Below are positions 2,555-27,546 of a stretch of 40,563 bases of DNA, piece after piece. Both the position numbers and the translations under genes were made by a program. Origin of the DNA: Tissierellales bacterium (GTDB taxonomy: Bacteria; Bacillota; Clostridia; Tissierellales; JAOAQY01); NCBI GenBank assembly GCA_025210965.1, contig JAOAQY010000183.1:1-40563 (forward strand), in the 5' to 3' direction. The notes under the pieces are model-generated. The model made no database searches, was not told the DNA's origin, and saw only the letters and a program-made list of their open reading frames with translations. The stretch's first letter is position 1. Each line of letters opens with the position of its first letter.

Positions 2555-2590
2555 ATATTTTTTCCCACTTTCTCTTGATTATTCACCCAT

Positions 2591-3757: not shown

Positions 3758-3759
3758 TT

Positions 3760-5490
3760 TTATTCACCAGCCTCGCCCAATGTTATATTTTTTAATTTAG
3801 TCAATATGACTTTTGTTTCAGCTGTTGTTTCTCCCAGCAAACTAGCTATTTCTTGGGCAACTCTCATTTGCTTTTCAATAACTTCTTGAGCTGAATTTAT
3901 TGTCGTTTCTTTGACTCTTGCCAATTCTTTTCGGCTCTTTTCCTCTTGAGTAACATCTGTAAGAATTGCTAATACTATGCCTTCTTTTTCGATATATATT
4001 ATATTTTGATATATAACTGCTCCATAATTTGCGAATTCTTTTTTCTCACTTATTATATTTTTACCACTTTCAATGACTTTAGCAAAATCAGAATCGTCAA
4101 TGATCATAGATATTGGTTTGCCAACAAGATCCTCTGCCTGTACGTTAAATAACTCTTCTCCTGCTGGATTGATTTCTTTGACAAAAAGCTCTTCATCTAG
4201 CATCAATATTACATTTGGACTCCTTCCAAATATTATATTTCTAAGACTCTCTGCCTTCGCTCTCATATACGGTAAGCACATAGTTATATCACTCATTCCC
4301 TCATATACCGCCTGAGCCTTCTCTCTACAAGTCAAATATCCACAAGCATTGCAGTTAAGTTCATCTTCGGGTCTAAACTTGCCCATTTTTCTCAAAATAG
4401 CCGTTATCTCACTCTCACTTGCTTCTCTTCTTATTACTTTTCTATCAATAAATAACTTTCTATAATCCATTTCTTTTTGTTCTTTTGTAAATAATTCAGC
4501 ATTAACCTTCCAATAATCTTGCTCTTTTTCAACATATTCTCGTACTCTACGTTCCCTAACGTAATAATTATCCTTATTTTTAGGCATACCAGGACCATCT
4601 ACACAGCTCCCCATGCAAACATTTATTTCTATACAGCTTTTTGTGATATCTTCATTTTTCAGTGCATCTAATATATCCTTACATCGATCGACTCCATCAA
4701 CTCTAATAATTTCGTACTTATCTTTCGCAGCTTTTTTAACCTCTTCATTTATAAGTCCTCCCCCAATCGGAAAAGCTCTCCCCCTATGGTAAGATGCCTT
4801 ATCAAAATCAGTTATATTCAATTTTTTCAAATCTATATTGTCTTCAGAAAACCATTCGCTAAGCTCTTCAAACGTCAAAACAGAATCTATTAATGTCCTA
4901 TGTTCCGGTTCCTCTGCTTCAGCTTTTTTAGCTAGACATGGACCTATAAATACCATATAATTATCCATTCCATAGTGATGTTTCATGATTTTACCATGAG
5001 CTAACATGGGTGATACTACCGGCATCATATACTTAACTAATTCTGGATAATACCTTTCAATCATATAGTTAGCCGAAGGGCAACTTGTCGTTATAAGATT
5101 TTTTTTATCACCCTTTTCTATTTGCTTCTTATAATAATCGGAAACAATTTCTGCTCCTATAGCCGTTTCCTCGACTACATCAAATCCTAGTAATTTTAAC
5201 CCCGTAACGATCTGCCTAGCATCATCTAAATCAAATGCTCCTACAAAAGATGGTGCCAAACTTACTAGTACTTTTTTTTCACTGCTGATCGCCATCTTAA
5301 CTCTATCTATATCGCTTATTATAGTAAGTGCATTTTGCGGACATATCTCTTGACATTCTCCACATTTGATACACATCTCATCTACTATCTCAGCATAATC
5401 CTCCAATATAGTAATTGCTTTAGATGGACATTTTCTCAAGCATTTATAACAATGATTACATTTTTCGGTGTCAAAATGAATAAATTTCAT
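3760..5490 (-). CDS. hydS: Sensory [FeFe] hydrogenase with PAS domain (HydS-like)
   Basis: 576 residues. Domains in order: two 4Fe-4S ferredoxin motifs (C11-x2-C-x2-C-x3-C21 and C40-x2-C-x2-C-x3-C50); H-cluster domain about 70-310; a further 4Fe-4S motif (C380, C383, C388, C405); PAS domain about 411-515; a C-terminal amphipathic, probably coiled-coil tail. H-cluster signatures are TTSCPS at 134-139, GPCLAKK with C185, and VCMGSC with C292 and C296. The four cluster ligands are kept, but the cysteine that normally shuttles protons in TSCCP is a serine (S136). Known sensory (group C/D) enzymes also lack this cysteine and have low turnover, so this is very likely an H2 or redox sensor rather than a bulk catalyst. 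The PAS and coiled coil could pass the signal to the phosphatase encoded 2 bases downstream. A GGGAGG ribosome binding site precedes the ATG. Confidence 0.9.
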   Translation of the reverse strand: MKFIHFDTEKCNHCYKCLRKCPSKAITILEDYAEIVDEMCIKCGECQEICPQNALTIISDIDRVKMAISSEKKVLVSLAPSFVGAFDLDDARQIVTGLKLLGFDVVEETAIGAEIVSDYYKKQIEKGDKKNLITTSCPSANYMIERYYPELVKYMMPVVSPMLAHGKIMKHHYGMDNYMVFIGPCLAKKAEAEEPEHRTLIDSVLTFEELSEWFSEDNIDLKKLNITDFDKASYHRGRAFPIGGGLINEEVKKAAKDKYEIIRVDGVDRCKDILDALKNEDITKSCIEINVCMGSCVDGPGMPKNKDNYYVRERRVREYVEKEQDYWKVNAELFTKEQKEMDYRKLFIDRKVIRREASESEITAILRKMGKFRPEDELNCNACGYLTCREKAQAVYEGMSDITMCLPYMRAKAESLRNIIFGRSPNVILMLDEELFVKEINPAGEELFNVQAEDLVGKPISMIIDDSDFAKVIESGKNIISEKKEFANYGAVIYQNIIYIEKEGIVLAILTDVTQEEKSRKELARVKETTINSAQEVIEKQMRVAQEIASLLGETTAETKVILTKLKNITLGEAGE

Positions 5491-5920: not shown

Positions 5921-6538
5921 TTAGAATTTTACTAATTCCAATATTTTTTCTTCTCTATTTGTTGCCAATTTCTCTAAAATTTCGATTTTCTTGTTCATTG
6001 CTTCTACAAATTCTTCGTCTTTTATCGATCCTAAATTGATTTTCACATTCAAAAGTGCTGATAATATAGCTGTTCTCGCCATCATAGCTGCTACTAAGCC
6101 ATCTGTAACTGCATTTTGATTTCCTTTTTTAACCAAAATTTCAATACCATCAAACAATTCAGCCGAAACTGCTGCTATTTCTAAAGGTACCTTCGCTGCC
6201 TCTTTAAAGCTTTTTTGCAAATATTCTTTTCTAGTCTTCTTATCTTCATCTGTTTCCTTAGGCAATTTAAATCCTTTCATAACAGCATTAAAAGATTCTG
6301 CATCTTCATCTATAAGATTCAGCAATGTAACTCTCTTGTCTTCAAAAGATGATGCTATCTTTTTCATATCTTCTTCTACTTCTATATATTTCTTTTTCCC
6401 AATAGTCAAATTAGCAACCATAGCTCCTAAACTACTAGCTAGAGCTCCACTAAGTGCTGCTACACTACCTCCACCTGGAACAGGTTCATTAGAAGCAGTC
6501 TTAGCTGTGAATTCATCCACATTTAAATTCTTTAACAT
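5921..6538 (-). CDS. fchA: Formimidoyltetrahydrofolate cyclodeaminase
   Basis: 205 residues. Converts 5-formimino-THF to 5,10-methenyl-THF plus ammonia in the cytoplasm. The N-terminal signature PVPGGGSVAALSGALASSLG (19-38) and the following helical pattern are those of the cyclodeaminase family; length matches the free-standing bacterial enzyme (about 210). It follows the formiminotransferase step (ftcD, two genes upstream). Its ATG lies inside the end of hutI, a 7-base overlap, implying translational coupling. Last gene of the operon, followed by a clear terminator. Confidence 0.93.
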   Translation of the reverse strand: MLKNLNVDEFTAKTASNEPVPGGGSVAALSGALASSLGAMVANLTIGKKKYIEVEEDMKKIASSFEDKRVTLLNLIDEDAESFNAVMKGFKLPKETDEDKKTRKEYLQKSFKEAAKVPLEIAAVSAELFDGIEILVKKGNQNAVTDGLVAAMMARTAILSALLNVKINLGSIKDEEFVEAMNKKIEILEKLATNREEKILELVKF

Positions 6539-7791
6539 AATTTTCTCCCCTTATCATAAATTACTTTTCCATTTTTTATAACAGTCTCAACACAATTAAC
6601 CCCAATATGATATGGTAAAAATTTATATGATTCATGTTCCAATATTATCATATCCGCCTGTTTGTTCAAATCCAAACTACCAAGTCTATCTGCTCTATCT
6701 AAAGCTGCCGCACCATTGAGTGTGAGAGCTGTAACTGTCTCTTCTATAGTAAGATTCATATAAAGTGTTGATAATGCAATTAGAAGTGGGATAGATTCAG
6801 TAAAACAACTTCCAGGGTTTAAATCAGATGCCAAAGCAACCGCGCAACCTTGATCTATCATATATCTTCCTCTAGCATAGTTTTCCTTTAAACTAAAAGC
6901 CGTAGCAGGAAGTAAGGTCGCGATAGTACCTGTATTAGCTAGCATATCTATTCCTTCATCAGATGCCTGTAACAAATGATCTGCTGATACAGCCTTTAAG
7001 TTTGCCGCCAGTTCTGCTCCTCCTAATTGAACTATTTCATCCGCATGTAACTTTAGTTTCAATCCAATTTTACAAGCCTCTTCTAAAAGATATTTAGAAT
7101 CTTCTATTTCAAAAACATTCTTTTCACAAAAAACATCGCAAAATTCAGCTAAATTCTTCTCTTTTATTTCAGGTAAAATTCGAATCATTTTTTCGATAAA
7201 TTTTCTTTCATTCCCTTTGTATTCGTTAGGAACCGCATGTGCTCCTAAAAAAGTTGGCACAATATCAAGTTCGTGAACCGAATTTAGTTCTCTCATAACC
7301 TCTAATTGCTTAATCTCAGTATCGTAATCTAATCCATAACCGCTCTTTCCTTCAACTGTAGTTACTCCAAATCTCATCATTGAGTCAAGTCTTTTTTCGC
7401 CTAGTTTTAAAAGCTCTTCATAACTCGCTTTTTTGGTTCCTTCAACCGAATTGACTATTCCTCCACCGCGTTCCATTATTTCCATATATGACTTACCCTC
7501 AAGTCTCCATGAAAATTCTTCTTCTCTATATCCTCCAAACACAAAATGCGTATGTGAATCTACAAAACCTGGCAAGACGCTCTTTCCTCTAGCATCTATA
7601 ATTTCATAATTGTCAAAATTAAACTTACTCTCAAGTTTATGGGTAGGTCCAATTGCAACTATAACTCCATTTTCAACAACAATCATACCATCTTCAATCC
7701 TAGTAAGTTTATTCATATCTTTACCTTTTTTTGCTTCATATCCTGAACTAAATACCAATTCAGATGCATTGTGAATAATTAAATTTCTCAC
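6532..7791 (-). CDS. hutI: Imidazolonepropionase
   Basis: 419 residues. Hydrolyses 4-imidazolone-5-propionate to N-formimino-L-glutamate, third step of histidine degradation. Amidohydrolase metal-site residues are visible: DSHTHF with H80 and H82, LHADEI with H249, SADHLL with H272 and ASDLNPGSC with D323. Length is typical (about 405-420). The start is a GTG at 7791 with a GGAGG site 8 bases upstream, 11 bases after the ftcD stop. It overlaps fchA by 7 bases at its 3' end. Confidence 0.96.
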   Translation of the reverse strand: MRNLIIHNASELVFSSGYEAKKGKDMNKLTRIEDGMIVVENGVIVAIGPTHKLESKFNFDNYEIIDARGKSVLPGFVDSHTHFVFGGYREEEFSWRLEGKSYMEIMERGGGIVNSVEGTKKASYEELLKLGEKRLDSMMRFGVTTVEGKSGYGLDYDTEIKQLEVMRELNSVHELDIVPTFLGAHAVPNEYKGNERKFIEKMIRILPEIKEKNLAEFCDVFCEKNVFEIEDSKYLLEEACKIGLKLKLHADEIVQLGGAELAANLKAVSADHLLQASDEGIDMLANTGTIATLLPATAFSLKENYARGRYMIDQGCAVALASDLNPGSCFTESIPLLIALSTLYMNLTIEETVTALTLNGAAALDRADRLGSLDLNKQADMIILEHESYKFLPYHIGVNCVETVIKNGKVIYDKGRKLC

Positions 7792-7802
7792 TTGAAAGCC
7801 TC

Positions 7803-8708
7803 CTATTCCATAAGCCTAGATTCTAAGACTTGATTCATAGAAAAATCTTCAATTTGTAAATAGTAAACCGCGCTGTCAATAAGAGCTTCCATAGGAGCTA
7901 ATCCTATGAGCTCACTTCCAATTATATTTACCCCGTATCTCCTAGCTTCGATTCTTATAAGCTCAACAACACTGTATATTGTAGTTTTGGTATAGTTTGT
8001 CAAGTTCATTGATACCTGAACTATTCCTCTATCTTCTAGCTCTACTCCCATAGCTTTGACAAACCTTAGACCGCCCCCTATATGTCTTACTTTTTTTGCT
8101 ATTTTATCTGCAACATCTAGATTGTTTGTCCCTAAATTTACATTGAAGGCAACCAAAGGCATTCTAGCTCCTACCGCTGTTACACCTGCTGAGGGATGTA
8201 CTTTGTTTAAACCAAAATCTGGATGCCAAAGTTCATCTTGCATTTTTTCATTCATTCCTTCAAACTGACCTTTTCTCACTTTTGCCAAGTTAGTTCTATG
8301 AGTTGCACTAGCTGCTTTTTCGTACAAGAATATAGGAATATCGTGAATTTTATTTACCTCTTCGGCTACTTCTTTAGCCAGTTCAATCGCCTCATCCATT
8401 TCCATATTTCTTATAGGAATAAATGGAACTACATCAGTCGCTCCCATTCTTGGATGTTGACCTTCGTGTTCTCTAAGATCTATTAATTCTTTAGCTACGC
8501 CAATTGCATCTATAACTGCCTTTTTTAAAGGTTCTACTTCACCAACCACTGTAACAACTGATCTATTATGATCTTCATCACTACTATAATCTAGTAACTT
8601 TACACCTTTTTTACCTCGAAAACAATCTACTATTTTTTCAACTTTTTTTAAATCTCTTCCTTCACTAAAATTTGGCACGCACTCTACTAATTTTTTGATT
8701 TCAGACAT
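7803..8708 (-). CDS. ftcD: Glutamate formimidoyltransferase
   Basis: 301 residues. Moves the formimino group from N-formiminoglutamate to tetrahydrofolate, giving glutamate and 5-formimino-THF. The N-terminus (VECVPNFSEGRD at 8-19) and EGQHPRMGATDVVPF are family signatures. It is only the transferase half; in animals it is fused to the cyclodeaminase, here separate as fchA. It lies 11 bases after hutU and 11 bases before hutI. A GGAGG site precedes the ATG. Confidence 0.95.
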   Translation of the reverse strand: MSEIKKLVECVPNFSEGRDLKKVEKIVDCFRGKKGVKLLDYSSDEDHNRSVVTVVGEVEPLKKAVIDAIGVAKELIDLREHEGQHPRMGATDVVPFIPIRNMEMDEAIELAKEVAEEVNKIHDIPIFLYEKAASATHRTNLAKVRKGQFEGMNEKMQDELWHPDFGLNKVHPSAGVTAVGARMPLVAFNVNLGTNNLDVADKIAKKVRHIGGGLRFVKAMGVELEDRGIVQVSMNLTNYTKTTIYSVVELIRIEARRYGVNIIGSELIGLAPMEALIDSAVYYLQIEDFSMNQVLESRLME

Positions 8709-8719
8709 AATAAAGCCTC

Positions 8720-10750
8720 CTAGTAATGTTTTTTGACTAACTCTTTGATCATTTTTTCATCTGTTACATATGGAATAGTTATATGATCTTTTCCACTCAT
8801 CTTTTCATTGTATTCAATTGATGTGCTCATAGAATTTTCATTTCTAGCCCAAGACCTTCTTGCAACTCCACCCATTACGTCCCATGGCATTGCAGATCGT
8901 ATAATTTCATCGGTTCTTTCACTTCCATCAAGTACTAGACCAAAACCACCATTTATTGATTTTCCTATGCCTACTCCGCCACCATTATGAAGTGCTATCA
9001 TCGTCATTCCTCTAGCAGCATTTCCTGCAAAACACTGTGTTGCCATATCTGCCATTATATTACTTCCATCTTTTATATTGGATGTTTCTCTATATGGCGA
9101 ATCTGTACCACCTGTATCATGATGATCTCTTCCAAGCATAATTGGACCAACTTCACCATTTCTAACCATTTCATTAAATTTAAGAGCTATATTCATCCTT
9201 CCAAGAGCATCTTGATACAATATTCTCGCTTGAGTTCCAACAACTAGTCTATTTTTATCCGCATCTCTAATCCAAACCCAATTATCTCTGTCTTGAAATC
9301 TTCTATCAGGATCAATACAAGACATAGCTGCTTTGTCGGTCTTTAATAAGTCTTCTGACTTACCACTCAAGCAAACCCATCTGAATGGCCCATATCCATA
9401 ATCGAATAGAAATGGTCCTAATATGTCTTCCACATATGATGGGAATATAAAACCATCTAACGTATTTTCTCCATTTTTACAAATTTCTTTAACCCCAGCA
9501 TCATATACTGCTCGCATAAATGAATTTCCATAATCAAAGAAATAAGTCCCTCTCTTAACAAGTTTTTTTATCAGTTCAAAATGCTTTTGTAAACTTTCAT
9601 CTACCTTCTTGCAAAAGAGATTTTTATTTTCTTTTAGCAATCTAGTTCTTTCCTCAAAATCAAGACTCTGTGGGCAATATCCACCTTCATATGCTGCATG
9701 ACAAGATGTCTGATCTGAAAGCAACTCTATTTCTATATTATTTTCAACAGCATATTCCAACAAATCTACAATATTCCCCTCATATGCTATTGCTTCTGCC
9801 TTATTTGATTTTTTGCACTCATTTGCTCTATCAAAAACTTCTTTCAAGTCCGAACTTACAAAACTTACCCATCCTTGCTCATATCTAGTTTGAATTCTAG
9901 ACGGATCAACTTCTGCAATAATGCCTACTCCACCGGCGATTTCAATAGATTTCCCCTGTGCACCACTCATTCCACCGAGTCCACTAGTCACGTATAAATG
10001 ACCTGCTAAATCTTTATCTTTAGGTATGCCAAGCTTTTCTCTTCCAGCATTCAATATAGTACTATACGTTCCATGTACTATGCCTTGCGGTCCAATATAC
10101 ATCCATCCACCAGCTGTCATCTGTCCATAATTTGCAACTCCTAATTGCATAGCCCTGTGCCAATTTTCATGGTCATCAAACGCTCCTATCATAAGCGCAT
10201 TTGTTATTATTGCTCTAGGCGCTCCTATATGCGAATGAAATAATCCAAGTGGATGACCTGATTCAACTACCAACGTCTGTGTTTCTTCTATTTCTTCTAA
10301 ATACCTCATTATCAATTGATATTGCATCCAATTCTGACAAACTTGTCCCGTCTCCCCATAAGTAACAAGTTCGTATGGATACAAGGCAATATCAAAATCG
10401 AGATTGTTATTAATCATAAGTTGTATAGATTTCCCCGCTATACAATTTCCTTTATAATCGTCTATGCTTCCACCCTTTATTTCTCCATCTGGTCTAAATC
10501 TGTAACCATAGATTCGGCCCATAGTCAAAAGCTCTTCTAAAAATTCTGGTGCCAATTGTTCCTGCCACTGTTCTGGTATATATCGTAGTGCATTTTTCAG
10601 TGCTAATTCAGTTTCTGTTTGTGACAATGTAAATTCTCTTTTTGGCGCTCTCCTTTTAGTATCGTCAAATTCTTTTTTACTTGGTAATTCAGAAAATATA
10701 TCCTCTAATTTAATTTTCATAGATGCTGATATTTGATCGTTGTTTATCAT
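8720..10750 (-). CDS. hutU: Urocanate hydratase (long form)
   Basis: 676 residues. Adds water to urocanate to give imidazolonepropionate, using tightly bound NAD+. Family motifs: YGETGQVCQNW (131-141), GGWMYIGPQGIVHGTYS near 214-230, and GLGGMSGAQ (257-265). The common proteobacterial and Bacillus enzyme is about 555 residues; this is the longer form of about 670 residues that also occurs in animals and some anaerobes. Second gene of the operon, 12 bases after fhs. No frameshift or missing motif seen. Confidence 0.96.
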   Translation of the reverse strand: MINNDQISASMKIKLEDIFSELPSKKEFDDTKRRAPKREFTLSQTETELALKNALRYIPEQWQEQLAPEFLEELLTMGRIYGYRFRPDGEIKGGSIDDYKGNCIAGKSIQLMINNNLDFDIALYPYELVTYGETGQVCQNWMQYQLIMRYLEEIEETQTLVVESGHPLGLFHSHIGAPRAIITNALMIGAFDDHENWHRAMQLGVANYGQMTAGGWMYIGPQGIVHGTYSTILNAGREKLGIPKDKDLAGHLYVTSGLGGMSGAQGKSIEIAGGVGIIAEVDPSRIQTRYEQGWVSFVSSDLKEVFDRANECKKSNKAEAIAYEGNIVDLLEYAVENNIEIELLSDQTSCHAAYEGGYCPQSLDFEERTRLLKENKNLFCKKVDESLQKHFELIKKLVKRGTYFFDYGNSFMRAVYDAGVKEICKNGENTLDGFIFPSYVEDILGPFLFDYGYGPFRWVCLSGKSEDLLKTDKAAMSCIDPDRRFQDRDNWVWIRDADKNRLVVGTQARILYQDALGRMNIALKFNEMVRNGEVGPIMLGRDHHDTGGTDSPYRETSNIKDGSNIMADMATQCFAGNAARGMTMIALHNGGGVGIGKSINGGFGLVLDGSERTDEIIRSAMPWDVMGGVARRSWARNENSMSTSIEYNEKMSGKDHITIPYVTDEKMIKELVKKHY

Positions 10751-10762
10751 AAATATCCCCCT

Positions 10763-12442
10763 TTAGAATAAACCTGAAATATTACCGTTCTTGTCGATGT
10801 CCATGCCATTTGCAGCAGGTTTTTTTGGAAGACCTGGCATAGTCATTATGTTTCCAGTTAAAACTACTACGAATCCAGCTCCACTAGATAATCTAATTTC
10901 TTTTATTTGGACTTTAAATCCTTCTGGTCTTCCTAATAACTGTTTTTGATCTGATAAAGAGTATTGGTTTTTAGCCATACAAATTGGTAAATTATCGTAT
11001 CCTAATTCCACTAATTTCTTCAATTGCTTCTTAGCTTTTGCTGAAATAGAAATTCCATCTGCTCCGTAAATTTCTTTGCTAATCGTTTCTATTTTTGCTT
11101 CAAGATTCATATCATCACTATACAATGTTTCAAAATGCGACTTCTCATTTTCTATAGTATCAACAACCGCCTTAGCCAATTCAACTCCGCCTTCGCCGCC
11201 TTTAGCCCAAACTTCTGTCAATATTACTTTTACATCCATAGCTTTACAGAGTTCCTGTAATTTCTGAATTTCAGCTTCCGTATCTGTAGGAAATTTGTTT
11301 ATAGCAACTACCGCTGGTACTTTAAATTTTCTAACATTTTCTATATGTTTTTCTAAGTTTGAAAATCCTTTTCCAAGAGCATCAATGTTTTCTTCACTTA
11401 AAAATTCTTTTCTTACCCCGCCGTGATGTTTAAGTGCTCGTATAGTAGCAACTACCACTGTACAATCAGGTTTTAAATTTCCTTGTCTACACTTTATATT
11501 AAAAAACTTCTCTGCTCCTAAGTCCGCTCCAAATCCAGCCTCTGTAACAACATAATCAGTCAGTTTTAATGCAGCCTTAGTTGCTATTAAACTATTACAT
11601 CCATGTGCTATGTTAGCAAATGGTCCACCATGTATTAACACTGGTGTATTTTCTACTGTTTGCACTATGTTAGGTTTAATAGCATCCTTTAATAAAAGTG
11701 TAACTGCACCAGTAGCTTCTATATCATCTGGTGTAATTGGATTCCCACTATAATCATATGCAATTGTCATTCTACCTATTCTATTTTTCAAATCATCTAA
11801 ATCACTCGCCAAACATAGAATTGCCATTATCTCTGATGCAACTGTAATATCAAAACCATCTTCTCTTGGCACTCCATTTGTCTTACCACCTAATCCAGCA
11901 ACTATATGTCTGAGTTCTCTGTCATTCATATCCAACACACGTTTCCAAACTATTTGTCTAGTATCTATATTCTTTGAATTTCCTTGATGAATATGATTAT
12001 CTAAAAGCGCGGCAAGTAGATTGTGAGCCGTAGTGATGGCATGTATATCTCCAGTAAAATGAAGGTTTATATCCTCCATTGGAACTACTTGAGAATATCC
12101 ACCTCCTGCCGCTCCTCCTTTAACTCCAAAACAAGGTCCTAAAGAAGGCTCTCTAAGTGCACTTATAGCTTTTTTACCAATTTTGTTTAAAGCCATTGAT
12201 AGCCCTATATTAACGGTAGTTTTGCCTTCTCCTGCCGGAGTCGGATTTATAGCTGTCACAAGTATTAGTTTACCATCTGGTCTGTTCTCTATGCTTTTTA
12301 GAAAATTCCCATCTATTTTTGCCTTGTACTTTCCATAAACTTCTAATTGATCAATTCCAACACCAATCTGTTCTGCAATCTTTTCAATGTGTTCCATTTT
12401 TGCATTTTGTGCAATCTCAATATCACTTGGTACCTTTGTCAT
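10763..12442 (-). CDS. fhs: Formate-tetrahydrofolate ligase
   Basis: 559 residues, a usual length. Catalyses formate + THF + ATP to 10-formyl-THF + ADP + phosphate, and is reversible. The P-loop [10 protein letters not shown] is at 67-76, with [20 protein letters not shown] after it, both diagnostic. As first gene of the histidine operon it most likely runs in the ATP-forming direction, taking the formimino carbon released by ftcD and fchA to formate. The methenyl-THF cyclohydrolase (folD) needed between them is not in the window. A weak promoter sits upstream; the divergent neighbour is the DUF3793 gene. Confidence 0.96.
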
Positions 12443-16324: not shown

Positions 16325-17128
16325 CTACTTTACATATATTGATGGTTTTACATACTTAAATGGAACTATGTTTCTGTCAATACTTTCAGAGTGACCTATA
16401 AACAAATGACCTCCACTATCTAATACATTATAAAATTTCTTCATAATCTCGTGCTTAGTTTGAAAATCGAAATAGATCATAACATTCCTACAAAATATGA
16501 CATCAAAATTCTTTTTAAACCTATAGTCGCTTAATAAATTAAGTCTTCTAAACAAAACCTCATCCTTTAACTTATTTGTTATATTGACCTCTGTACTTGT
16601 CAATTTATCAAAATACTTCTTGTAATAATAATTAGGTACTTCCATTACGTCATCCTTTTTATAAGAACCGGTTCTAGCTACAGCAAGTACCTTATCTGAT
16701 ATATCTGTGGCTAATATTTGTGTATTCCAAAGTGTTTTTTCTTTTCCAAAAAAATCATCAATAATCATAGCTAAAGTATATGCTTCTTGTCCTGAAGAGC
16801 ACCCAGCACTCCAAATTCTGAGGTCTCTATCTTTTTTTACTTTTTTCAAATATGGTAATACTTCATTTCTAAAGTATTCAAAGTGCTCTTTTTCTCTCCA
16901 AAAATAGCTATGATTTGTAGTTATTCTATTCAAAAACTCTTTCATTAAATTACCCGATTCATCACTTCTAACCGCATTCATATAACTCGAAAATGAATCA
17001 TATGATTTTTCTACAATATAATTTTCAAGCCTTGCCGCAACTAATGCTCTCTTCTTTTCCGTTAAGTTTATACCGTAATTTAACTTTACAAATTGTGATA
17101 TTTCTAAAAACTCCTTATTTGTAAGCAT
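16325..17128 (-). CDS. cheR: Chemotaxis protein methyltransferase CheR
   Basis: 267 residues. Transfers methyl groups from S-adenosylmethionine to glutamates on chemoreceptors. It has the N-terminal helical domain (about 1-75), then TTNHSYFWRE and the SAM-binding RIWSAGCSSGQEAYTLAM, and near the C-terminus FDVIFCRNVMIYF, all standard. No CheB, receptor or CheY is adjacent; the next gene is the hybrid kinase. The ATG has a GGAGG site. The promoter region contains a 22-base element nearly identical to one in front of cheA. Confidence 0.93.
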   Translation of the reverse strand: MLTNKEFLEISQFVKLNYGINLTEKKRALVAARLENYIVEKSYDSFSSYMNAVRSDESGNLMKEFLNRITTNHSYFWREKEHFEYFRNEVLPYLKKVKKDRDLRIWSAGCSSGQEAYTLAMIIDDFFGKEKTLWNTQILATDISDKVLAVARTGSYKKDDVMEVPNYYYKKYFDKLTSTEVNITNKLKDEVLFRRLNLLSDYRFKKNFDVIFCRNVMIYFDFQTKHEIMKKFYNVLDSGGHLFIGHSESIDRNIVPFKYVKPSIYVK

Positions 17129-19311: not shown

Positions 19312-20181
19312 TTATATCTCCTTGCATATGCCCTTAAGATACTCTTTAAAAGCATCTCCAACATCTTCGTGTTGCATCCCAAATTCAACAGTAGCTTTCA
19401 GGTAACCTAGTTTATCTCCAGTATCATAGCGTTGACCCTTAAAATCATATGCATATATATCTTCAAATTCAGCTAAAGCCTTTATGGCATCTGTCAATTG
19501 AATCTCTCCGCCTTTACCCGGTTCTGTTTTTTCTAATAACTCAAATATCTTTGGTGTAAGTATATATCTGCCTAGTATAGCTACATTAGAAGGAGCATTT
19601 TCTACAGAAGGTTTTTCTACCATATCATTTACTTTATATGTTCTATCTGATAGTTTTTCACCATCAACAATCCCATACTTGTCTACCTGACTTGGATCAA
19701 CCGTTTGAACTCCTAGTACAGACGCCCTTTCTTTTTCAAAAACATTTATCAATTGTTTAACACATGGTTCTTCAGAATGTACAATGTCATCACCTAATAG
19801 TACTGCAAATGGTTCTTCTCCGACAAATGTCTTTGCACACAATATAGCATGCCCTAATCCTTTTGGCTCTATTTGTCTAACATAGTGAAGATTAGCCATA
19901 TCTGTTATTTCTTCGACTTTTTGTAACAATTCTATTTTATTTTTTTCTTTAAGATTATGTTCAAGTTCAACAGCTCTATCAAAATGATTGATTATAGATG
20001 TTTTATTTCTACCTGTTATAATTAGTATTTCCTCTATTCCCGCTTTAATAGCTTCTTCTACTATATATTGAATTCCCGGTTTATCAACTATAGGTAACAT
20101 TTCTTTGGGTTGTGCTTTGGTTGCTGGCAAAAATCTAGTTCCTAATCCCGCCGCTGGTATAACTGCTTTTCTTACTCTCAT
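19312..20181 (-). CDS. galU: UTP-glucose-1-phosphate uridylyltransferase
   Basis: 289 residues, normal length. Makes UDP-glucose from UTP and glucose 1-phosphate. The nucleotide-binding signature GLGTRFLPATKAQPKEM is at 12-28, and LLGDDIVHSEEPC and VEKPSVENAPSNVAILGRYI follow. UDP-glucose would feed the glycosyltransferases encoded immediately upstream. The ATG has a GGAGGAGG site. It has its own promoter with a long palindrome at the start point, and is followed after one base by the nitroreductase. Confidence 0.96.
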   Translation of the reverse strand: MRVRKAVIPAAGLGTRFLPATKAQPKEMLPIVDKPGIQYIVEEAIKAGIEEILIITGRNKTSIINHFDRAVELEHNLKEKNKIELLQKVEEITDMANLHYVRQIEPKGLGHAILCAKTFVGEEPFAVLLGDDIVHSEEPCVKQLINVFEKERASVLGVQTVDPSQVDKYGIVDGEKLSDRTYKVNDMVEKPSVENAPSNVAILGRYILTPKIFELLEKTEPGKGGEIQLTDAIKALAEFEDIYAYDFKGQRYDTGDKLGYLKATVEFGMQHEDVGDAFKEYLKGICKEI

Positions 20182-20229: not shown

Positions 20230-20253
20230 AGGAGATTTGTATACAAATCTCCT
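20230..20253 (-). other. Perfect 24-base palindrome at the predicted galU start point
   Basis: Every base of 20230-20253 pairs with its mirror (core GATTTGTATACAAATC). On the minus strand it is followed by TGTGTTTTTG. It could be the terminator of the upstream glycosyltransferase operon, a repressor operator, or a 5' hairpin on galU mRNA. It lies just downstream of the predicted galU promoter, so a pure terminator would also block galU. Confidence 0.6.
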
Positions 20254-20307: not shown

Positions 20308-22056
20308 TTATTCATTTGTCTTAATTTGTTCTGTATCTTTCATAACAAACTGTTTAACTAGCTCATTAGTATTGCTAAGTTTGAAGAATAGCTTATCTAA
20401 GAACATAAACAATATCTTATTTCCAACCTTAGGATCTTTTTGTATTAATTTTTCTATATCTTTTTGATCTACAGTCAATAGCTCAACAAATTCATCCGCA
20501 ACTGCATCTACATGATGATCTTCATTAACAATCGCTGTTTCTCCTAAGATTCCTCTACTACAAATCTTAGACAATGGTATTTCTTCTCCCATATCGTTTC
20601 TCTTTACAATTCTAACACATCCGCGTAATATTATATAAAGCCTAGAATCTTTGTCACCTTTTTTGAAAATAACCTCATCATTTTTATATGCTTTTATATA
20701 AGTTATTTGCGCTAATTCTGAAAGTTCAAAATCGCTAAATTCTTTAAATTCTGGCATACTCTTCATTATATCTTTTATTTCAACTGCACTTAAATCTTTG
20801 AAATGAGCAGGGTCTATTCTCTTGACATCATTCGTCAAATTATTAGTTTCTATTATCCCCCTAATTTCACGTCTATACGTAACCGTTGCTTCTATTAGTT
20901 TTTCCCAAGCTTTTTGAATTTTTCTGTATTCTGTAAATGTGTCCATCTTAGGAATTGCTTCATATTTACTCAAATAAATATTGTTAATCGCTTCTCTACA
21001 CGCTTCAACTTCTCCCTGTGCTAGATAATCAAGAGCTAATAATATATTAGTTTTAAAAATCTTATCCTCCAAATCTTCTTTCAAAAAATCTCCCGGATAT
21101 GGCTCGAAATCTTCTGCTGTAACCTTTCTCATATTCGCAGTTTCATATTGATTATCTATTTTCGATTTTTCATACAAGAACCTATAAATATCTTCTCTAA
21201 ATCGTTTCCATATTGGATGATTTTTTGGTGGTGGCAAATGTTTTATATTTAAAGTGTTATCCAAGAAGAAGTCATATCCAAACATCTTTGCATTCATTAG
21301 ATAATCTATATCTTCTCCTCTAGTTATACTTGGATCAAATGGCACTATTCTATACATATTTTTGTGAATTACCATTAGACCACCAAAAGCAAATGGTGTT
21401 TGCTTAAGTCTTGGATCACAAGATATTATTTTATCGAAAGCTTTAGCCTTGCTTCCAAATCTATCCCAATAAGTCATCCAAGCTTTCATGTCAACATCAT
21501 CATAATATTCGTCTTTTTTATTTAAATAATATCCAGCTACTCCAAATATACTTTTACCATACAATCTCTTTCCTATGAATTCTGTCGCTCTACCTATAAA
21601 ATCTGCTTTTTCAAAAACCTCATCATCATCTATCAAAATGGTAACATCTGATGACAATATATGAGCCGAATACAAACACATATTTCTAACATTTGAATAT
21701 CCTTTTAACTCTAAAAGATCAAGTGCTGATTCTTGCAAGCCTTTTTCTCTCAATAATTTTTCTATTGCTCTAGCATTCTTAGGAGTAAATAAATAGGTTT
21801 CAATATCTAATTCTGCCTTCTCTACGATTTCCCTAACTCTCTTTTCGGCAACTTCTTCGATTTCTCTTGTAGTTGGACAGATGGGTATTATTAGTTTAAA
21901 ATTTTTATCATTTAATCCTTTCATACTCTCCAAAGTTCTGCCAAGCGTATCTTCTCCATCTATATAAGTAGGATGGTCGTAAACTGCATCTCCCTCCTGC
22001 CAAGGTTCTCCTTTTTTTCTTCCCCAATATGTCGGTATTACAACACTAGTCCTCAT
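20308..22056 (-). CDS. Glycosyltransferase (GT-A fold) fused to a cyclic-nucleotide-binding-like domain
   Basis: 582 residues. N-terminal part about 1-300 is a GT-A glycosyltransferase: start VVIPTYWGR, metal-binding IDDDE (142-146), and TRGEDIDYL (245-253). Residues about 320-430 are helical linker. Residues about 437-555 look like a CRP/PKA-type cNMP-binding domain (ILRGCVRIVKR, GILGETAIVNEDHHVDAVA). The arginine that normally grips the cyclic phosphate (R-x-A after GE-A) is replaced by histidine (HHVDAVA, 514-520), so cAMP binding is doubtful; another ligand or a structural role is possible. No DNA-binding domain. The ATG has GGAGG. Last of three transferase genes, followed by galU. Sugar and acceptor unknown. 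Confidence 0.8.
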   Translation of the reverse strand: MRTSVVIPTYWGRKKGEPWQEGDAVYDHPTYIDGEDTLGRTLESMKGLNDKNFKLIIPICPTTREIEEVAEKRVREIVEKAELDIETYLFTPKNARAIEKLLREKGLQESALDLLELKGYSNVRNMCLYSAHILSSDVTILIDDDEVFEKADFIGRATEFIGKRLYGKSIFGVAGYYLNKKDEYYDDVDMKAWMTYWDRFGSKAKAFDKIISCDPRLKQTPFAFGGLMVIHKNMYRIVPFDPSITRGEDIDYLMNAKMFGYDFFLDNTLNIKHLPPPKNHPIWKRFREDIYRFLYEKSKIDNQYETANMRKVTAEDFEPYPGDFLKEDLEDKIFKTNILLALDYLAQGEVEACREAINNIYLSKYEAIPKMDTFTEYRKIQKAWEKLIEATVTYRREIRGIIETNNLTNDVKRIDPAHFKDLSAVEIKDIMKSMPEFKEFSDFELSELAQITYIKAYKNDEVIFKKGDKDSRLYIILRGCVRIVKRNDMGEEIPLSKICSRGILGETAIVNEDHHVDAVADEFVELLTVDQKDIEKLIQKDPKVGNKILFMFLDKLFFKLSNTNELVKQFVMKDTEQIKTNE

Positions 22057-22076: not shown

Positions 22077-23282
22077 TTATTTTTTATTTAAGACATCTTG
22101 GTATAATTTCTCTAATTCTCCAATAGAATTTTTCCAAGAGAAATTTTCTTTTGCATATTTGTTACAGTACTTACTTCGCTCTTCTTTATCTACTCTTTCA
22201 AGCTCATTTACAACTTTTTTCGACAACTCCAATTCATCTTCAACCGGAATAAGTGCCCCTACATCTTCATTTATAAAATCAGGCAATCCGCCTTGATTCG
22301 TTCCAATCACTGGAGTTCCACAAGCTAGAGCCTCTACCGCAACAAGTCCAAATGGTTCAGTTCTCGATGGCACTACACTTACATCTGCTATATTGTATAT
22401 TTTAACTAATTCAGATTGAGACACATGTCCCAGAAAATGAACATTAGTAAGTTTCAAATCTGATTTCAGTTTATTCAATTTTGAATACAATTCGCCATTG
22501 CCAGCTATTATCGTAAGAACAGTGTGTCCATATCTTTTCTCATATATATGAGCTGCTTTTAATAAAACATCCACTCCCTTAAAATGAGTCAACTTTCCAA
22601 CAAAAGAAATAATATATTTTGGTTCTTCCTTTATATCAAATGATTTTAGTATCTCATATCTGTCTATAGTCTCGTCCATCACAAACAATCCATCATCATA
22701 CCCATTCATTATTCTAGTCCTTTTTTCTAGAGGCACATGATATAATTCTTCAACCTCTCTATCAACCTGCTTCGAAATTGTTATTACTCTTTCCGCTTTC
22801 TTTGCTCCTTCTAATGCGTATTTGTGATATCTACCATCTTTCTTAAAACCTTTCAGATCAGTTCCATGCGCTGTAACAACATATGGTATATTGGTTAGAC
22901 TCGCAATATATGGCGCTAGCCACAAATGCTGTGCATGAATTATATCAGGTTTAAATACTTCAATCTCCGCTTTTACTTTTTTCATAAATATGGAAATATA
23001 TTCTTCAATTTGATCATGATTCATGTCATAAAATGTATAATTACTTCTAGGATGACTTGTAAAACAAGGAAAATTAAAATCAACATCATAACTTTTTTGA
23101 TCTTGTTTTCCTCTAAATATAATTGGTACAGATTTAAATCCTTCATAGTTTACTTTTTCAATCTCTGGGAATACTACAACTACCTCGTTACCTCTTTCAG
23201 CCAATTCTTTCGCTATATTTCTCGTATAAATACCGCTACCTGATCCTTCCAATGGAAAATGATTGATCATAAGAATTTTCAT
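22077..23282 (-). CDS. GT4-family glycosyltransferase
   Basis: 401 residues from the ATG at 23282 (GGAGG 8 bases upstream; a TTG one codon earlier is less likely). GT-B fold, retaining. The N-terminus has the glycine-rich SGSGIYTRNIAKEL loop; the C-terminal half has SFVGKLTHFKGVD, and the nucleotide-sugar site RTEPFGLVAVEALACGTPVIG, the E-x7-E pattern of the family. Probably uses a UDP-sugar supplied by galU; acceptor unknown. No membrane segment. Twenty bases separate it from the next transferase gene. Confidence 0.9.
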   Translation of the reverse strand: MKILMINHFPLEGSGSGIYTRNIAKELAERGNEVVVVFPEIEKVNYEGFKSVPIIFRGKQDQKSYDVDFNFPCFTSHPRSNYTFYDMNHDQIEEYISIFMKKVKAEIEVFKPDIIHAQHLWLAPYIASLTNIPYVVTAHGTDLKGFKKDGRYHKYALEGAKKAERVITISKQVDREVEELYHVPLEKRTRIMNGYDDGLFVMDETIDRYEILKSFDIKEEPKYIISFVGKLTHFKGVDVLLKAAHIYEKRYGHTVLTIIAGNGELYSKLNKLKSDLKLTNVHFLGHVSQSELVKIYNIADVSVVPSRTEPFGLVAVEALACGTPVIGTNQGGLPDFINEDVGALIPVEDELELSKKVVNELERVDKEERSKYCNKYAKENFSWKNSIGELEKLYQDVLNKK

Positions 23283-23297
23283 CAATTGCTCCTCCTC

Positions 23298-24455
23298 TTA
23301 TAATAATTTAGTTGTTATTTCACTCCATGAATCTAAAGTATCTCTATATCTGTCAATCATATAATCTAATTGCCCATAAGAAATATCTAAAGCCTCTGAT
23401 AATTTCAAAAATCTGTCATCTTTCAAATAATTAGCTATAGCTTGTTCTCCTCTTATCAAAGCTTCTCTCTGCTTCTCATAAACATCATTTATATCTCTTT
23501 TATGCATCCAATTTAAAAATGGGTTTCTGCCTATCCATCCCATGCAAGCATAGAAAAATCTATCTGTAATGTTTTTGTCATTTATTATATCTGGTTTAAA
23601 CGGATAGTTATTAAATGTATCATGAAAAATTTTCATATCTATATCTATGCACTTCCTGTTTCCACGGTTAACTGCTAATCCCAATAAAGTATCTTCCCCT
23701 CGAGTTAAATAAGGCTTGTTATCAACAACCAAAACATCTGAAAAAAATGGTGGTAAATGCTTAAGTTCCTTTATATTAATTCCCAAATTTCCACCAAGTA
23801 CTTTATTAGTTTCAAATACATCACGTTTTACTGGTTTTCCAAAAACCAAACAACTATCTTCTCTACATGATTGAACCCGTTCATACATCATTTCTTTTTG
23901 TATTCCCTTAAATAAATCTTTCATTCCTTCAAATTTCATCATTGGTATTATGAAATACCCTGAATAATCGCTAGTTGTAATATCGACATTTTCTTTTTTC
24001 AAATAATTCAAGTGCTCGCCTACAAAATCTATATCAACTTGCTCTCGCTCATCCTCTATTTTAGATAAAATATAAGGATATACATCAGTATCTATAAATA
24101 GAAGAACGTCTGTTTTGTTCAAAATTGCTTTAACTAAAACATTATTTCTATTTTTGCCGTAAGGTACCATCCCAAAATCAATTAATTCCTGTGATTTCAA
24201 AATAAAATCACAACTTTTTTGAGAAACTCGGTATTCTAAAAGGTCTTTTACCATGCCCTCATTTTGATTTATCTTTATGAGTTCTATCTTTACCCGTCCC
24301 TGTAATCGTTCTACCATTTTAAAATCACAATCAAACGAATAAGCTACTATTACGCTATGTACTCGATGTCCATATTTTTCAGCATTATCTAAAAACAATT
24401 CTAAAGTCCCTGGAGTTGTAAAATTTTTAGTAATAATCCCAAACGACACATTCAT
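23298..24455 (-). CDS. Putative GT-A-type glycosyltransferase, unrecognised family
   Basis: 385 residues. No exact family recognised. It starts with a beta strand (MNVSFGIITKNFTTPGT), has a DxD-like motif in LLFIDTDVYP (residues about 118-127) and YLTRGEDTLLG (about 267-277). The last block resembles TRGEDIDYL in the fused transferase two genes downstream, which supports a GT-A nucleotide-sugar transferase. No signal peptide or membrane helix. First gene of the operon, with AGGAGG before the ATG and 12-15 bases to the GT4 gene. The function of the set (glycolipid, exopolysaccharide or compatible solute) cannot be decided from sequence. Confidence 0.65.
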   Translation of the reverse strand: MNVSFGIITKNFTTPGTLELFLDNAEKYGHRVHSVIVAYSFDCDFKMVERLQGRVKIELIKINQNEGMVKDLLEYRVSQKSCDFILKSQELIDFGMVPYGKNRNNVLVKAILNKTDVLLFIDTDVYPYILSKIEDEREQVDIDFVGEHLNYLKKENVDITTSDYSGYFIIPMMKFEGMKDLFKGIQKEMMYERVQSCREDSCLVFGKPVKRDVFETNKVLGGNLGINIKELKHLPPFFSDVLVVDNKPYLTRGEDTLLGLAVNRGNRKCIDIDMKIFHDTFNNYPFKPDIINDKNITDRFFYACMGWIGRNPFLNWMHKRDINDVYEKQREALIRGEQAIANYLKDDRFLKLSEALDISYGQLDYMIDRYRDTLDSWSEITTKLL

Positions 24456-24969: not shown

Positions 24970-25404
24970 TTATTGATCCTTAAACATTTCTTCCAAATCT
25001 AATATAAGTATAATGTCCTCTCCGTCATTTATCTTACCAACAGCACTTACAAACTTCTTAGTTTCATCACCTATGGTTAGTTCTCTGACATTTTCTAAAT
25101 TATCCTTATCAATCTCTTCTACTTCATTTACACCTTCAACTAATAATCCTGTCTTACCCTCATCATTAGCTATAATTATAATTCTTGACTCATCATTTCC
25201 TTCAGTCTGTCCCAATTCGAATTTAGTCTTAGCATCAATGATTGGAATTATTTCTCCTCTCAAATTAACTACACCACGCATATGCGTTTTTGACCTTGGA
25301 ACTCTACATATCACCATAAATTTCTCTATAGTCTGTACTTCCGTGATGTTAATTCCGTACTTTTCCGAGCCAATTCTAGCTATTACATACTTATTACTTT
25401 CCAT
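24970..25404 (-). CDS. cheW: Chemotaxis adaptor CheW
   Basis: 144 residues, single CheW domain. Links chemoreceptors to CheA. Seen: YGINITEVQTIEKF, the conserved MRGVVNLRGEIIPIID (about 42-57) and a final VGKINDGEDIILILDLEEMF. AGGAGG precedes the ATG; 12 bases after cheA. Distal gene of the operon, followed by the terminator. Confidence 0.94.
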   Translation of the reverse strand: MESNKYVIARIGSEKYGINITEVQTIEKFMVICRVPRSKTHMRGVVNLRGEIIPIIDAKTKFELGQTEGNDESRIIIIANDEGKTGLLVEGVNEVEEIDKDNLENVRELTIGDETKKFVSAVGKINDGEDIILILDLEEMFKDQ

Positions 25405-25416
25405 GCTCGTCCCTCC

Positions 25417-27546
25417 TTATGAAAGCTCTGCTGGATTAATAATTAGCGCAACTTCACCATTACCAAGAATAGTTGCTCCACTTACCAATTTAGAACGCTT
25501 CAACTCCGCTTTCAATGTTTTAATTACTATTTCCTGTTGTCCAATTAAAGAATCAACTACAACCCCAACTGTTTTATTACCTTTCTTAGCCATAACAACT
25601 GTAAGTTCCTCAGTTTCTTCCATAGCATCTGGTACTTCTAGCAACTCGCACAATCTGTAAATAGGAATAGTTTTATTTCTAAATACAACAACATCTTTTC
25701 CTGTAACTTGATGAATTGTTGATTTTTCTATAGTTTCAACACTTTCTACCGTATCAAGTGGCATAGCATAAATTTCGCTTCCTGATCTCATCATTAGCGC
25801 TTGCACTATGGCTAGTGTAAGAGGTAATCTGATAGTAAACACCGAACCCTTTCCAAGTTCAGTTTTAACACTCACATTTCCGCCTAAACTCTCAATAGTA
25901 GTTTTTACAACATCTAAGCCAACACCTCTTCCAGATAAATCCGAAAGCTGCTGTGCTGTTGAAAAACCAGCTCTAAATAGCAAATCAACCGCTTCATCAT
26001 CATTCATTTCTTGAGCTTCATGTTCAGTAATAAGACCCTTATCTATGGCTTTTTGCTTTACTTTTTCAACATTTATTCCGCCACCATCATCGGAGCACTC
26101 TATAAATACAGAATTTCCCTCTTGATATGCATGCATCTCTAGAGTACCCATATCACTCTTTCCTGCAGCTGCACGCTCTTCTGGCATTTCTAATCCATGA
26201 TCTAATGAATTTCTAACGATATGCAATAGTGGATCACCGATTTCATCAATAATAGTTCTGTCAAGTTCAGTCTCTTCACCACTTGTTATAAACTTAACCT
26301 GTTTTCCAAGTTTCTTAGAGGTATCTCTTACCATTCTAGGGAATCTACTAAATGTTTTCTCTATAGGTACCATACGCACATTCATAACACTATTGTGAAG
26401 ACTTGTAGTTATTCGCTCTAGATATTCAACAGAATCACGCAAGCCACTAACATTTTCAATAACAGTAATATCATGTAATCTAGTCTTTATTATAATAAGC
26501 TCACTAACTAAATTCATTAAATTATCTAATTTATTTATATCAACTCTAACTGTCTTATTAATTGCCCCAGTTTTTTTCTTTGTATCAGCTTTTTTTGATT
26601 CTGGCTTTGCTTTTTTCGCTTCCGCTACTTTTTGAGCTTTAACTTCCTCTTTAATTTCTACAGTTTCTTGAATCAATTCCTGCTCTTTAGGTTCTTCAGC
26701 AATTTCTACCTGTTCTTGTTCATCAGCTTCCTCGCTTGAAACATCCATAGACATATCGCCTAAATCTTTATCATCTATAAGTTTTACAGAGACACTGCTG
26801 ATTTCAACTATTTCGCCTACTTTTTTAGCAATTTCATCTATATCATGTTCTGTCACAAATAAAACGTAAAATTCATCACCATAATCATTATTCTCTATTT
26901 CTTCCGCTGATGGTAATGATTTAACTATATCAGATTCAAATGTTTCTTCAATTTCTTTAAAGACCATATATGCTCTTACAGCTTTCATTACACAGCCTTC
27001 TTCAACTACCACTTTCATTTGGCAAGCTTTTAATCCCTGATCTATAGCCTTAAACAAAGCAGCCTTAGTGTAGTTATCTAATTCAATTCCACCGTCCGAT
27101 TCTTCATCAGATTCATCGTCAACTTCAGCATTGTCATTGTCATCATCACTACTCTCAACATCTCTACCCTCTTGGATTGCAAGAAGTTTTTCAACTAGCT
27201 CGTCTACAAACACTTCCCCTTCTTCTTGGATAGACTCTATATTGTCAACAATTGACTCTAATACATCTAGACATTCAAATATGGAATCAATAATAGACTC
27301 GGTTGCCTCTAGCTTTCCATTTCTGATCAAATCTAAAACATTCTCCATTTTATGAGTTACACTCGACATTTTCGAAAAACCCATAGTACCAGCCATACCT
27401 TTTAATGTATGGGCCGAACGGAAAATTTCGTTAATAATATCCTTATCATCTCGACTTTTTTCCAATAATAGCACATTTTCATTCAACGATTGCAAATGCT
27501 CATGCGATTCATCCAAAAATACGCCCAAATATTCGTTATTATCCAA
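25417..27546 (-). CDS. cheA: Chemotaxis histidine kinase CheA
   Basis: 709 residues. Domains: P1 HPt about 1-125 with phospho-acceptor H46 in SAHTLKGMAGTMG; P2 response-regulator docking about 160-270; acidic/lysine-rich linker about 275-335; P3 dimerisation from VRVDINKLDNLMNLVSEL; P4 ATPase with HIVRNSLDHGLE, CSDDGGGIN and SGRGVGLDVVK; P5 CheW-like to the end. The start is a TTG at 27546 with GGAGGGG 6 bases upstream; no ATG nearby fits. Operon partner is cheW only; no receptor, CheY, CheC or CheD is adjacent. Complete. Confidence 0.95.
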   Translation of the reverse strand: MDNNEYLGVFLDESHEHLQSLNENVLLLEKSRDDKDIINEIFRSAHTLKGMAGTMGFSKMSSVTHKMENVLDLIRNGKLEATESIIDSIFECLDVLESIVDNIESIQEEGEVFVDELVEKLLAIQEGRDVESSDDDNDNAEVDDESDEESDGGIELDNYTKAALFKAIDQGLKACQMKVVVEEGCVMKAVRAYMVFKEIEETFESDIVKSLPSAEEIENNDYGDEFYVLFVTEHDIDEIAKKVGEIVEISSVSVKLIDDKDLGDMSMDVSSEEADEQEQVEIAEEPKEQELIQETVEIKEEVKAQKVAEAKKAKPESKKADTKKKTGAINKTVRVDINKLDNLMNLVSELIIIKTRLHDITVIENVSGLRDSVEYLERITTSLHNSVMNVRMVPIEKTFSRFPRMVRDTSKKLGKQVKFITSGEETELDRTIIDEIGDPLLHIVRNSLDHGLEMPEERAAAGKSDMGTLEMHAYQEGNSVFIECSDDGGGINVEKVKQKAIDKGLITEHEAQEMNDDEAVDLLFRAGFSTAQQLSDLSGRGVGLDVVKTTIESLGGNVSVKTELGKGSVFTIRLPLTLAIVQALMMRSGSEIYAMPLDTVESVETIEKSTIHQVTGKDVVVFRNKTIPIYRLCELLEVPDAMEETEELTVVMAKKGNKTVGVVVDSLIGQQEIVIKTLKAELKRSKLVSGATILGNGEVALIINPAELS

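Follow-up and report, generated by a model that had tools for sequence, protein, structure and literature searches.

The window, that is, the whole 40,563-nucleotide stretch of Tissierellales bacterium DNA analysed here, contains a gene for a glycosyltransferase (GT) that is fused to a domain of the cyclic-nucleotide-binding (CNB) type lacking the phosphate-binding arginine. The fusion itself, its conservation, the three-gene unit to which it belongs and the consistent loss of the arginine are all real. The protein, found in an anaerobic bacterium, is encoded by a single open reading frame that begins with ATG, is preceded by a Shine-Dalgarno-like GAGGAGG and holds both domains. Its parts are as follows:

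20308..22056, minus strand: 582-residue fusion of a GT-A/GT2-like glycosyltransferase, a helical stretch and a CNB-like domain (open reading frame, Pfam, fusion alignment)
21097..22056, minus strand: GT domain, residues 1-320 (alignment; weak GT2 Pfam matches in relatives)
20770..21096, minus strand: helical stretch and linker, residues 321-429, evolving fast towards its end (alignment, dN/dS)
20434..20694, minus strand: core of the CNB-like domain, PF00027, residues 455-541 (Pfam)

Full-length fusions were found in ten places: the window, the sampled genomes G337, G427, G417, G019, G790, G519, G684 and G637, and Acetoanaerobium noterae. They are 578-587 residues long. An artefact of assembly or reading frame is ruled out by these ten proteins of similar length, nine of which come from other genomes or records. 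Their common architecture and the conserved GT genes upstream further show that the two domains were not brought together by chance or by an assembly join. The fusion is present in at least 3 of the 391 genomes of the class sample (the window's genome, G337 and G019) and in at least 5 of the 398 genomes of the phylum sample (the window's genome, G790, G519, G684 and G637), both counts being lower bounds, since at most three candidates were scored per genome. It occurs in 3 of 60 genomes of the close-relative sample (the window's genome, G417 and G427) and, among the 72,556 records that make up the plasmid collection, in a single one, that of A. noterae DSL2. Candidatus Petromonas tenebris has a fragment of the fusion, cut by the contig end. 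In G803 of the phylum sample the match covered no more than the CNB domain, and this genome was left out of the fusion count. A pattern fitted 18 stretches of the viral collection, none of them a relative. An earlier note, made from the DNA of the window, had proposed that a GT and a CNB-type domain reside in one protein and that such a pair is rare. The reading frame, the PF00027 match and the ten full-length fusions confirm the former, and the latter holds within the samples, the window's genome included in each count. The A. noterae record (L053, NZ_CP154629.1) is labelled as plasmid pTPELB2 and resembles a chromosome; its size of 2.63 Mb suggests that the label is wrong.

The GT half of the window protein has no Pfam model above cut-off and no GT2 match in the Pfam scan. 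Among 13 GT-domain relatives, GT2 models are reached weakly, PF00535 by five (best E 3e-4) and PF13641 by four (best E about 4e-5 to 5e-5). A profile search of the PDB with just this domain found no match better than E 0.13. The layout of the domain is as expected, with VVIPTYW near the N-terminus, IDDDE at residues 142-146, RGEDIDY at 246 and HLPPP at 273. DDDE, RGED and HLPP are invariant in all 13 aligned GT domains, and I142 is nearly invariant. Two of these motifs are located as follows:

21619..21633, minus strand: IDDDE (142-146), a putative DxD-type motif, which we take to bind metal and sugar nucleotide (alignment)
21310..21321, minus strand: RGED (246-249), an invariant acidic motif, probably on the acceptor side (alignment)

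Residues 1-320 are 57-75% identical to the window protein in eight other fusions. Nine of the ten fusions, with G417 left out as a near-copy of G427, share 103 invariant positions out of 320. Judged from its sequence, the GT half appears to be a catalytically intact GT-A enzyme that would transfer a sugar.

The CNB domain is matched by PF00027 (cNMP_binding) at residues 455-541 with E 2.2e-17 and 63.2 bits, against a cut-off of 27.5. The same model is matched at E<=1 by five of the seven members of relative set A1; of the remaining two, one is a fragment truncated by its contig and one a GT that is not fused. In a phmmer search of the PDB, the best solved structures were the CNB domains of cGMP-dependent protein kinase (PKG I; E 2e-11), with further matches to those of PKA and of CRP-type proteins. 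In PKG I a conserved glutamate and a conserved arginine of the phosphate-binding cassette capture the sugar phosphate, as described in the consulted part of PMC3080414. The corresponding region of the fusion is altered:

20497..20550, minus strand: degenerate phosphate-binding cassette, residues 503-520, ILGETA...HHVDAVA (alignment)
20515-20517, minus strand: H514, at the position of the arginine (alignment to L055, in which the position of the glutamate corresponds to E506)

The motif HHVDAVA occupies residues 514-520. Alignment with a control from the same genome, the C19 CNB protein (L055), which carries the cassette arginine (PRSAS), puts H514 opposite the arginine; the PKG alignment instead puts the adjacent histidine of the motif there. 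In the ten fusions the arginine column reads H, Y, Y, Y, H, Y, Y, Y, H and S, so that arginine is found in none, histidine or tyrosine in nine and serine in one. Two residues after this column all ten have valine or methionine, followed in all ten by aspartate, threonine or asparagine. The glutamate that contacts the ribose 2'-OH is kept in seven of the ten, including E506 of the window protein, and is replaced by L, L and M in G519, G684 and G637, respectively. Residues 431-582 of eight other fusions are 23-40% identical to the window protein, and 3 of 87 CNB core positions are invariant in nine fusions. AlphaFold2 gave a mean pLDDT of 39.0 for the whole protein, with an alignment of just two sequences, that of the window and the fragment from Petromonas, and of 35.5 for the CNB domain alone, modelled from the window sequence only. 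As far as these alignments tell, the domain is a member of the fold family that lacks a defining feature of the canonical cyclic nucleotide (cNMP) receptor.

The arginine that the earlier note found missing from HHVDAVA is thus missing as a trait of the whole family. The "CRP-type sensor" of that note describes the fold correctly, but the domain is not followed by a DNA-binding part and the nearest solved matches are CNB domains of the protein-kinase type. Overall, the domain pair and the missing arginine stand. Control of sugar transfer by another nucleotide or a sugar nucleotide is possible, and a domain that serves only for structure or for protein contacts would agree with the data just as well.

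Between the near-copies G417 and G427, dN/dS is 0.025 in the GT domain, 0.60 in residues 321-425 and 0.05 in the CNB region (426-580). The CNB region differs by 3 nonsynonymous and 11 synonymous codon changes, and its core (451-540) by none and six, respectively. A decaying or passenger CNB domain is ruled out by these ratios for one close pair with few changes, and purifying selection in this pair speaks for a function of the domain. In a tree of the GT domains the fusions cluster, and three unfused relatives form a group (89/99) on long branches. The label fused or unfused changes twice on the best tree, which allows the fusion to have arisen once but does not show it.

The fusion gene is the third and last of a conserved unit in the order GT385, GT4, fusion. 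The unit and its downstream boundary in the window are:

23298..24455, minus strand: GT385, a 385-residue putative GT-A glycosyltransferase, first of the three genes (profile, locus comparison)
22077..23285, minus strand: GT4 glycosyltransferase, directly 5' of the fusion gene (Pfam, locus comparison)
20230..20253, minus strand: hairpin resembling a terminator, 3' of the fusion gene, with a stem of 10 bp (-13.4 kcal/mol, z -5.1)
19312..20181, minus strand: galU (UTP-glucose-1-phosphate uridylyltransferase), next gene past the terminator (locus comparison)

GT4 precedes the fusion gene in all 11 loci, the Petromonas fragment included, and GT385 lies 5' of GT4 in all ten loci where the contig reaches, with only about the first 80 residues matching in G684. 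GT385 has no Pfam family. Its profile aligns with that of the fusion GT domain with an hhalign E of 2.5e-7 and a probability of 93%. At E 1e-10, GT385 is matched in 22 of 398 genomes. Besides that of the window, the matches in G637 and G519 have E <1e-100 and that in G684 is partial; 18 others are weak, stand alone and lie in genomes holding no fusion in the phylum sample. Inspection of six of these 18 by eye showed no common neighbourhood. Downstream, galU adjoins the fusion gene in two of the eight loci where this side is visible, and there is no other recurring neighbour of the unit among the genes examined. The unit is without annotation.

Several other features of the loci are worth recording. 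Just upstream of the unit in G519 (L047:14721-15083) there is a gene for a small CBS-domain protein, possibly a second nucleotide-sensing partner there. In the window the unit is flanked by cheA with adjoining cheW (24970-27546) and by cheR (16325-17128), about 8 kb off. At 1097-5490 a protein with a SpoIIE-phosphatase domain is encoded between two iron-hydrogenase-like proteins, one of which has a PAS domain; the arrangement suggests a signalling unit that senses hydrogen or redox state. Genes for histidine/urocanate degradation (urocanase, formiminotransferase, cyclodeaminase and amidohydrolase) are situated at 5921-12442 together with formate-tetrahydrofolate ligase, and no histidine ammonia-lyase was found among the open reading frames of the window that were scanned.

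Three relatives of the GT domain, in G409, G587 and G637 (contig C34), are not fused. They are 33-35% identical and have the same invariant motifs. Those of G409 and G637 adjoin GH13 genes that resemble sucrose or glucosylglycerate phosphorylase, and the G637 gene is also in one run with a match to NF041101 (mannosylglucosylglycerate synthase, E 3e-135), a LacI gene and an ABC transporter. The G587 gene sits with LacI and an ABC transporter. According to the consulted part of a review (PMC11009771), homologues of sucrose phosphorylase tend to be found near genes of glucosylglycerate metabolism. More distant relatives in G425, G401 and G414 (21-23% identical) are located beside LacI and GH13 genes resembling trehalose-phosphate hydrolase. 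Matches to NF041101 and to the phosphorylase occur in all six genomes with a close or distant unfused relative, and these six include G637, where a fusion is present as well; all the NF041101 matches are below the cut-off of the model. In the phylum sample NF041101 is matched in 4 of 398 genomes, among them both sampled genomes that have an unfused relative; the resulting association figure of 7.6e-5 rests on two genomes picked after the data were seen. NF041101 is matched in none of eight genomes that have only the fusion, A. noterae not being among the eight, and the phosphorylase match at E 1e-30 is absent from seven of nine such genomes, the other two having weak matches (35% and 27%).

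The unfused branch looks like a group of candidate glucosylglycerate synthases, since genes for mannosylglucosylglycerate synthase and glucosylglycerate phosphorylase are present in the same genomes. The three proteins (L034:8146-9312, L050:9855-11054 and L051:9633-10850) are GT-A candidates for which there is no Pfam or NCBIfam model. The distant relatives (L035:9301-10560, L036:8707-10053 and L037:7844-9082) belong to one genus and adjoin LacI and GH13 genes of the alpha,alpha-phosphotrehalase type, possibly forming a pathway for a phosphorylated glucoside. As the eight fusion-only genomes lack the mannosylglucosylglycerate synthase, the product of the fused branch is probably a different one, and the presence of both forms in G637 indicates that the two probably differ in task.

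The role that we favour, although we would put it no higher than an even chance, is that of the last enzyme of the three-GT unit, a GT-A transferase with a built-in CNB module for regulation or assembly that does not bind cNMPs in the canonical way. Catalysis, donor, product and the effect of the CNB domain on activity are envisaged as follows. The donor for the GT half is probably a UDP-sugar, UDP-glucose for example, and the transfer would be one of the steps by which the fusion, GT385 and GT4 jointly build a short glycoside or glycan in the cytoplasm. The CNB domain may form a dimer contact or dock a partner, with its pocket either filled from within or reading a metabolite other than a cNMP, and the module, acting by way of the helical stretch, might set how active the transferase is. 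Counted against this role are the glutamate kept in seven of the ten fusions, the structure models, which at pLDDT 39.0 and 35.5 support no contact between domains, and galU, which is adjacent in two of eight loci and separated by the terminator. The pairing suggests a possible and unusual way to control or to assemble a glycan-making enzyme.

What the CNB domain does can be read in more than one way. It might be a pure scaffold, serving to pair two copies of the enzyme or to anchor it to the GT4 and GT385 proteins without acting as a switch, a tentative reading to which we give some weight. It is consistent with the residues lost from the pocket (arginine in ten of ten fusions, glutamate in three of ten), with the faster divergence of the CNB part (23-40% identity, against 57-75% for the GT part) and with the strict neighbourhood of two other GT genes. 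KCNH channels offer a precedent, their CNB homology domain not being gated by cyclic nucleotides, according to the part of PMC7515569 that was consulted. A somewhat more doubtful reading is that of a metabolite sensor, in which the transferase would be gated allosterically by a ligand other than a cNMP, for example the glycoside product, a sugar nucleotide or a cyclic dinucleotide, bound in a remodelled pocket. CNB domains are switch modules. In favour of such a sensor are the non-random replacement of the arginine by histidine or tyrosine in nine of ten fusions and the restricted residues that follow in all ten, as well as the purifying selection in one pair and the 32 GGDEF matches in the genome. 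However, few residues of the CNB core, 3 of 87 in nine fusions, are strictly kept. That the His/Tyr pocket senses a sugar nucleotide, a cyclic dinucleotide or a glycoside, and that the fusions constitute a new class of allosteric transferase thinly spread through the phylum, is a bolder form of this proposal and would be a speculative choice. Canonical control by cAMP or cGMP through unusual binding residues is very unlikely, because the arginine is absent from all ten fusions and the glutamate from three. The window genome does contain one class III cyclase, with an N-terminus that we assume to be CHASE2-like, besides the GGDEF matches and eight PF00027 proteins, the fusion included. Cyclic nucleotides may therefore exist in the cell, and as the glutamate is retained in seven fusions, weak or different binding of a nucleotide could persist.

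Other alternatives concern the product rather than the pocket. The fusion could be a compatible-solute enzyme similar to a glucosylglycerate synthase and under sensor control, as might be expected from the 33-35% identical unfused relatives in loci of the glucosylglycerate type and from NF041101, which is matched in so few genomes of the phylum sample and yet in both of those with an unfused relative. This is improbable in view of the fusion-only genomes, where NF041101 is not found (0/8) and the phosphorylase match is mostly lacking (7/9), of G637 with its two forms that probably differ in task, and of NF041101 matches that stay below the cut-off. A role of the three genes in the glycosylation of flagellin, or of some other protein of the cell surface, is even less probable. 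A flagellin or hook-associated-type gene (PF00669, L046) adjoins the fusion in G790, the cheA, cheW and cheR genes are near it in the window, and a flagellin-type gene is present in nine of ten fusion genomes or records, a count that has no background rate beside it. However, G684, which is 97% complete, has no flagellin match, the flagellin genes of the other eight lie elsewhere, and no other flagellar neighbour is shared among the genes examined.

CNB domains occur attached to diverse effectors. We know of no example in which a fused CNB domain directly controls a glycosyltransferase, and no description of a GT-CNB fusion was found in the literature searched, which consisted of titles and the beginnings of abstracts and included few subscription journals. 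The pairing is real and conserved and apparently undescribed, and may well be present, unnoticed, in domain databases. The regulatory subunits of PKA, PKG I and the CRP/FNR proteins share the PF00027 domain with the fusion at the level of sequence (E 2e-17 in Pfam, E 2e-11 in the phmmer search of the PDB). Unlike them, the fusion lacks the arginine (10/10) and in part the glutamate (3/10), is joined to a GT and has no DNA-binding or kinase part. The CNB homology domains of KCNH channels likewise have the CNB-type fold and are not gated by cyclic nucleotides (PMC7515569, in the part consulted), but KCNH is an ion channel whose pocket is filled by an intrinsic ligand strand, whereas the pocket of the fusion is known from sequence alone. 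The shell proteins of Family 2B encapsulins are an example of a bacterial non-regulator with a CNB-type domain, as given in the consulted part of PMC8049743, and NF041163 matches the CNB domain of the window protein with E 9e-9. There the partner of the domain is of the capsid type; in the fusion it is a candidate sugar-transfer enzyme. The unfused GTs (L034, L050 and L051) resemble the fusion in their GT domain, but they have no CNB domain and are found in sugar-uptake or glucosylglycerate loci, in contrast to the three-GT unit of the fusion; they point to a candidate family of glucosylglycerate synthases. If the pocket without arginine reads another metabolite, the fusion would represent a second-messenger receptor retuned inside an enzyme. 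If the CNB domain is only structural, it would be a bacterial counterpart of the ligand-free CNB homology domains.
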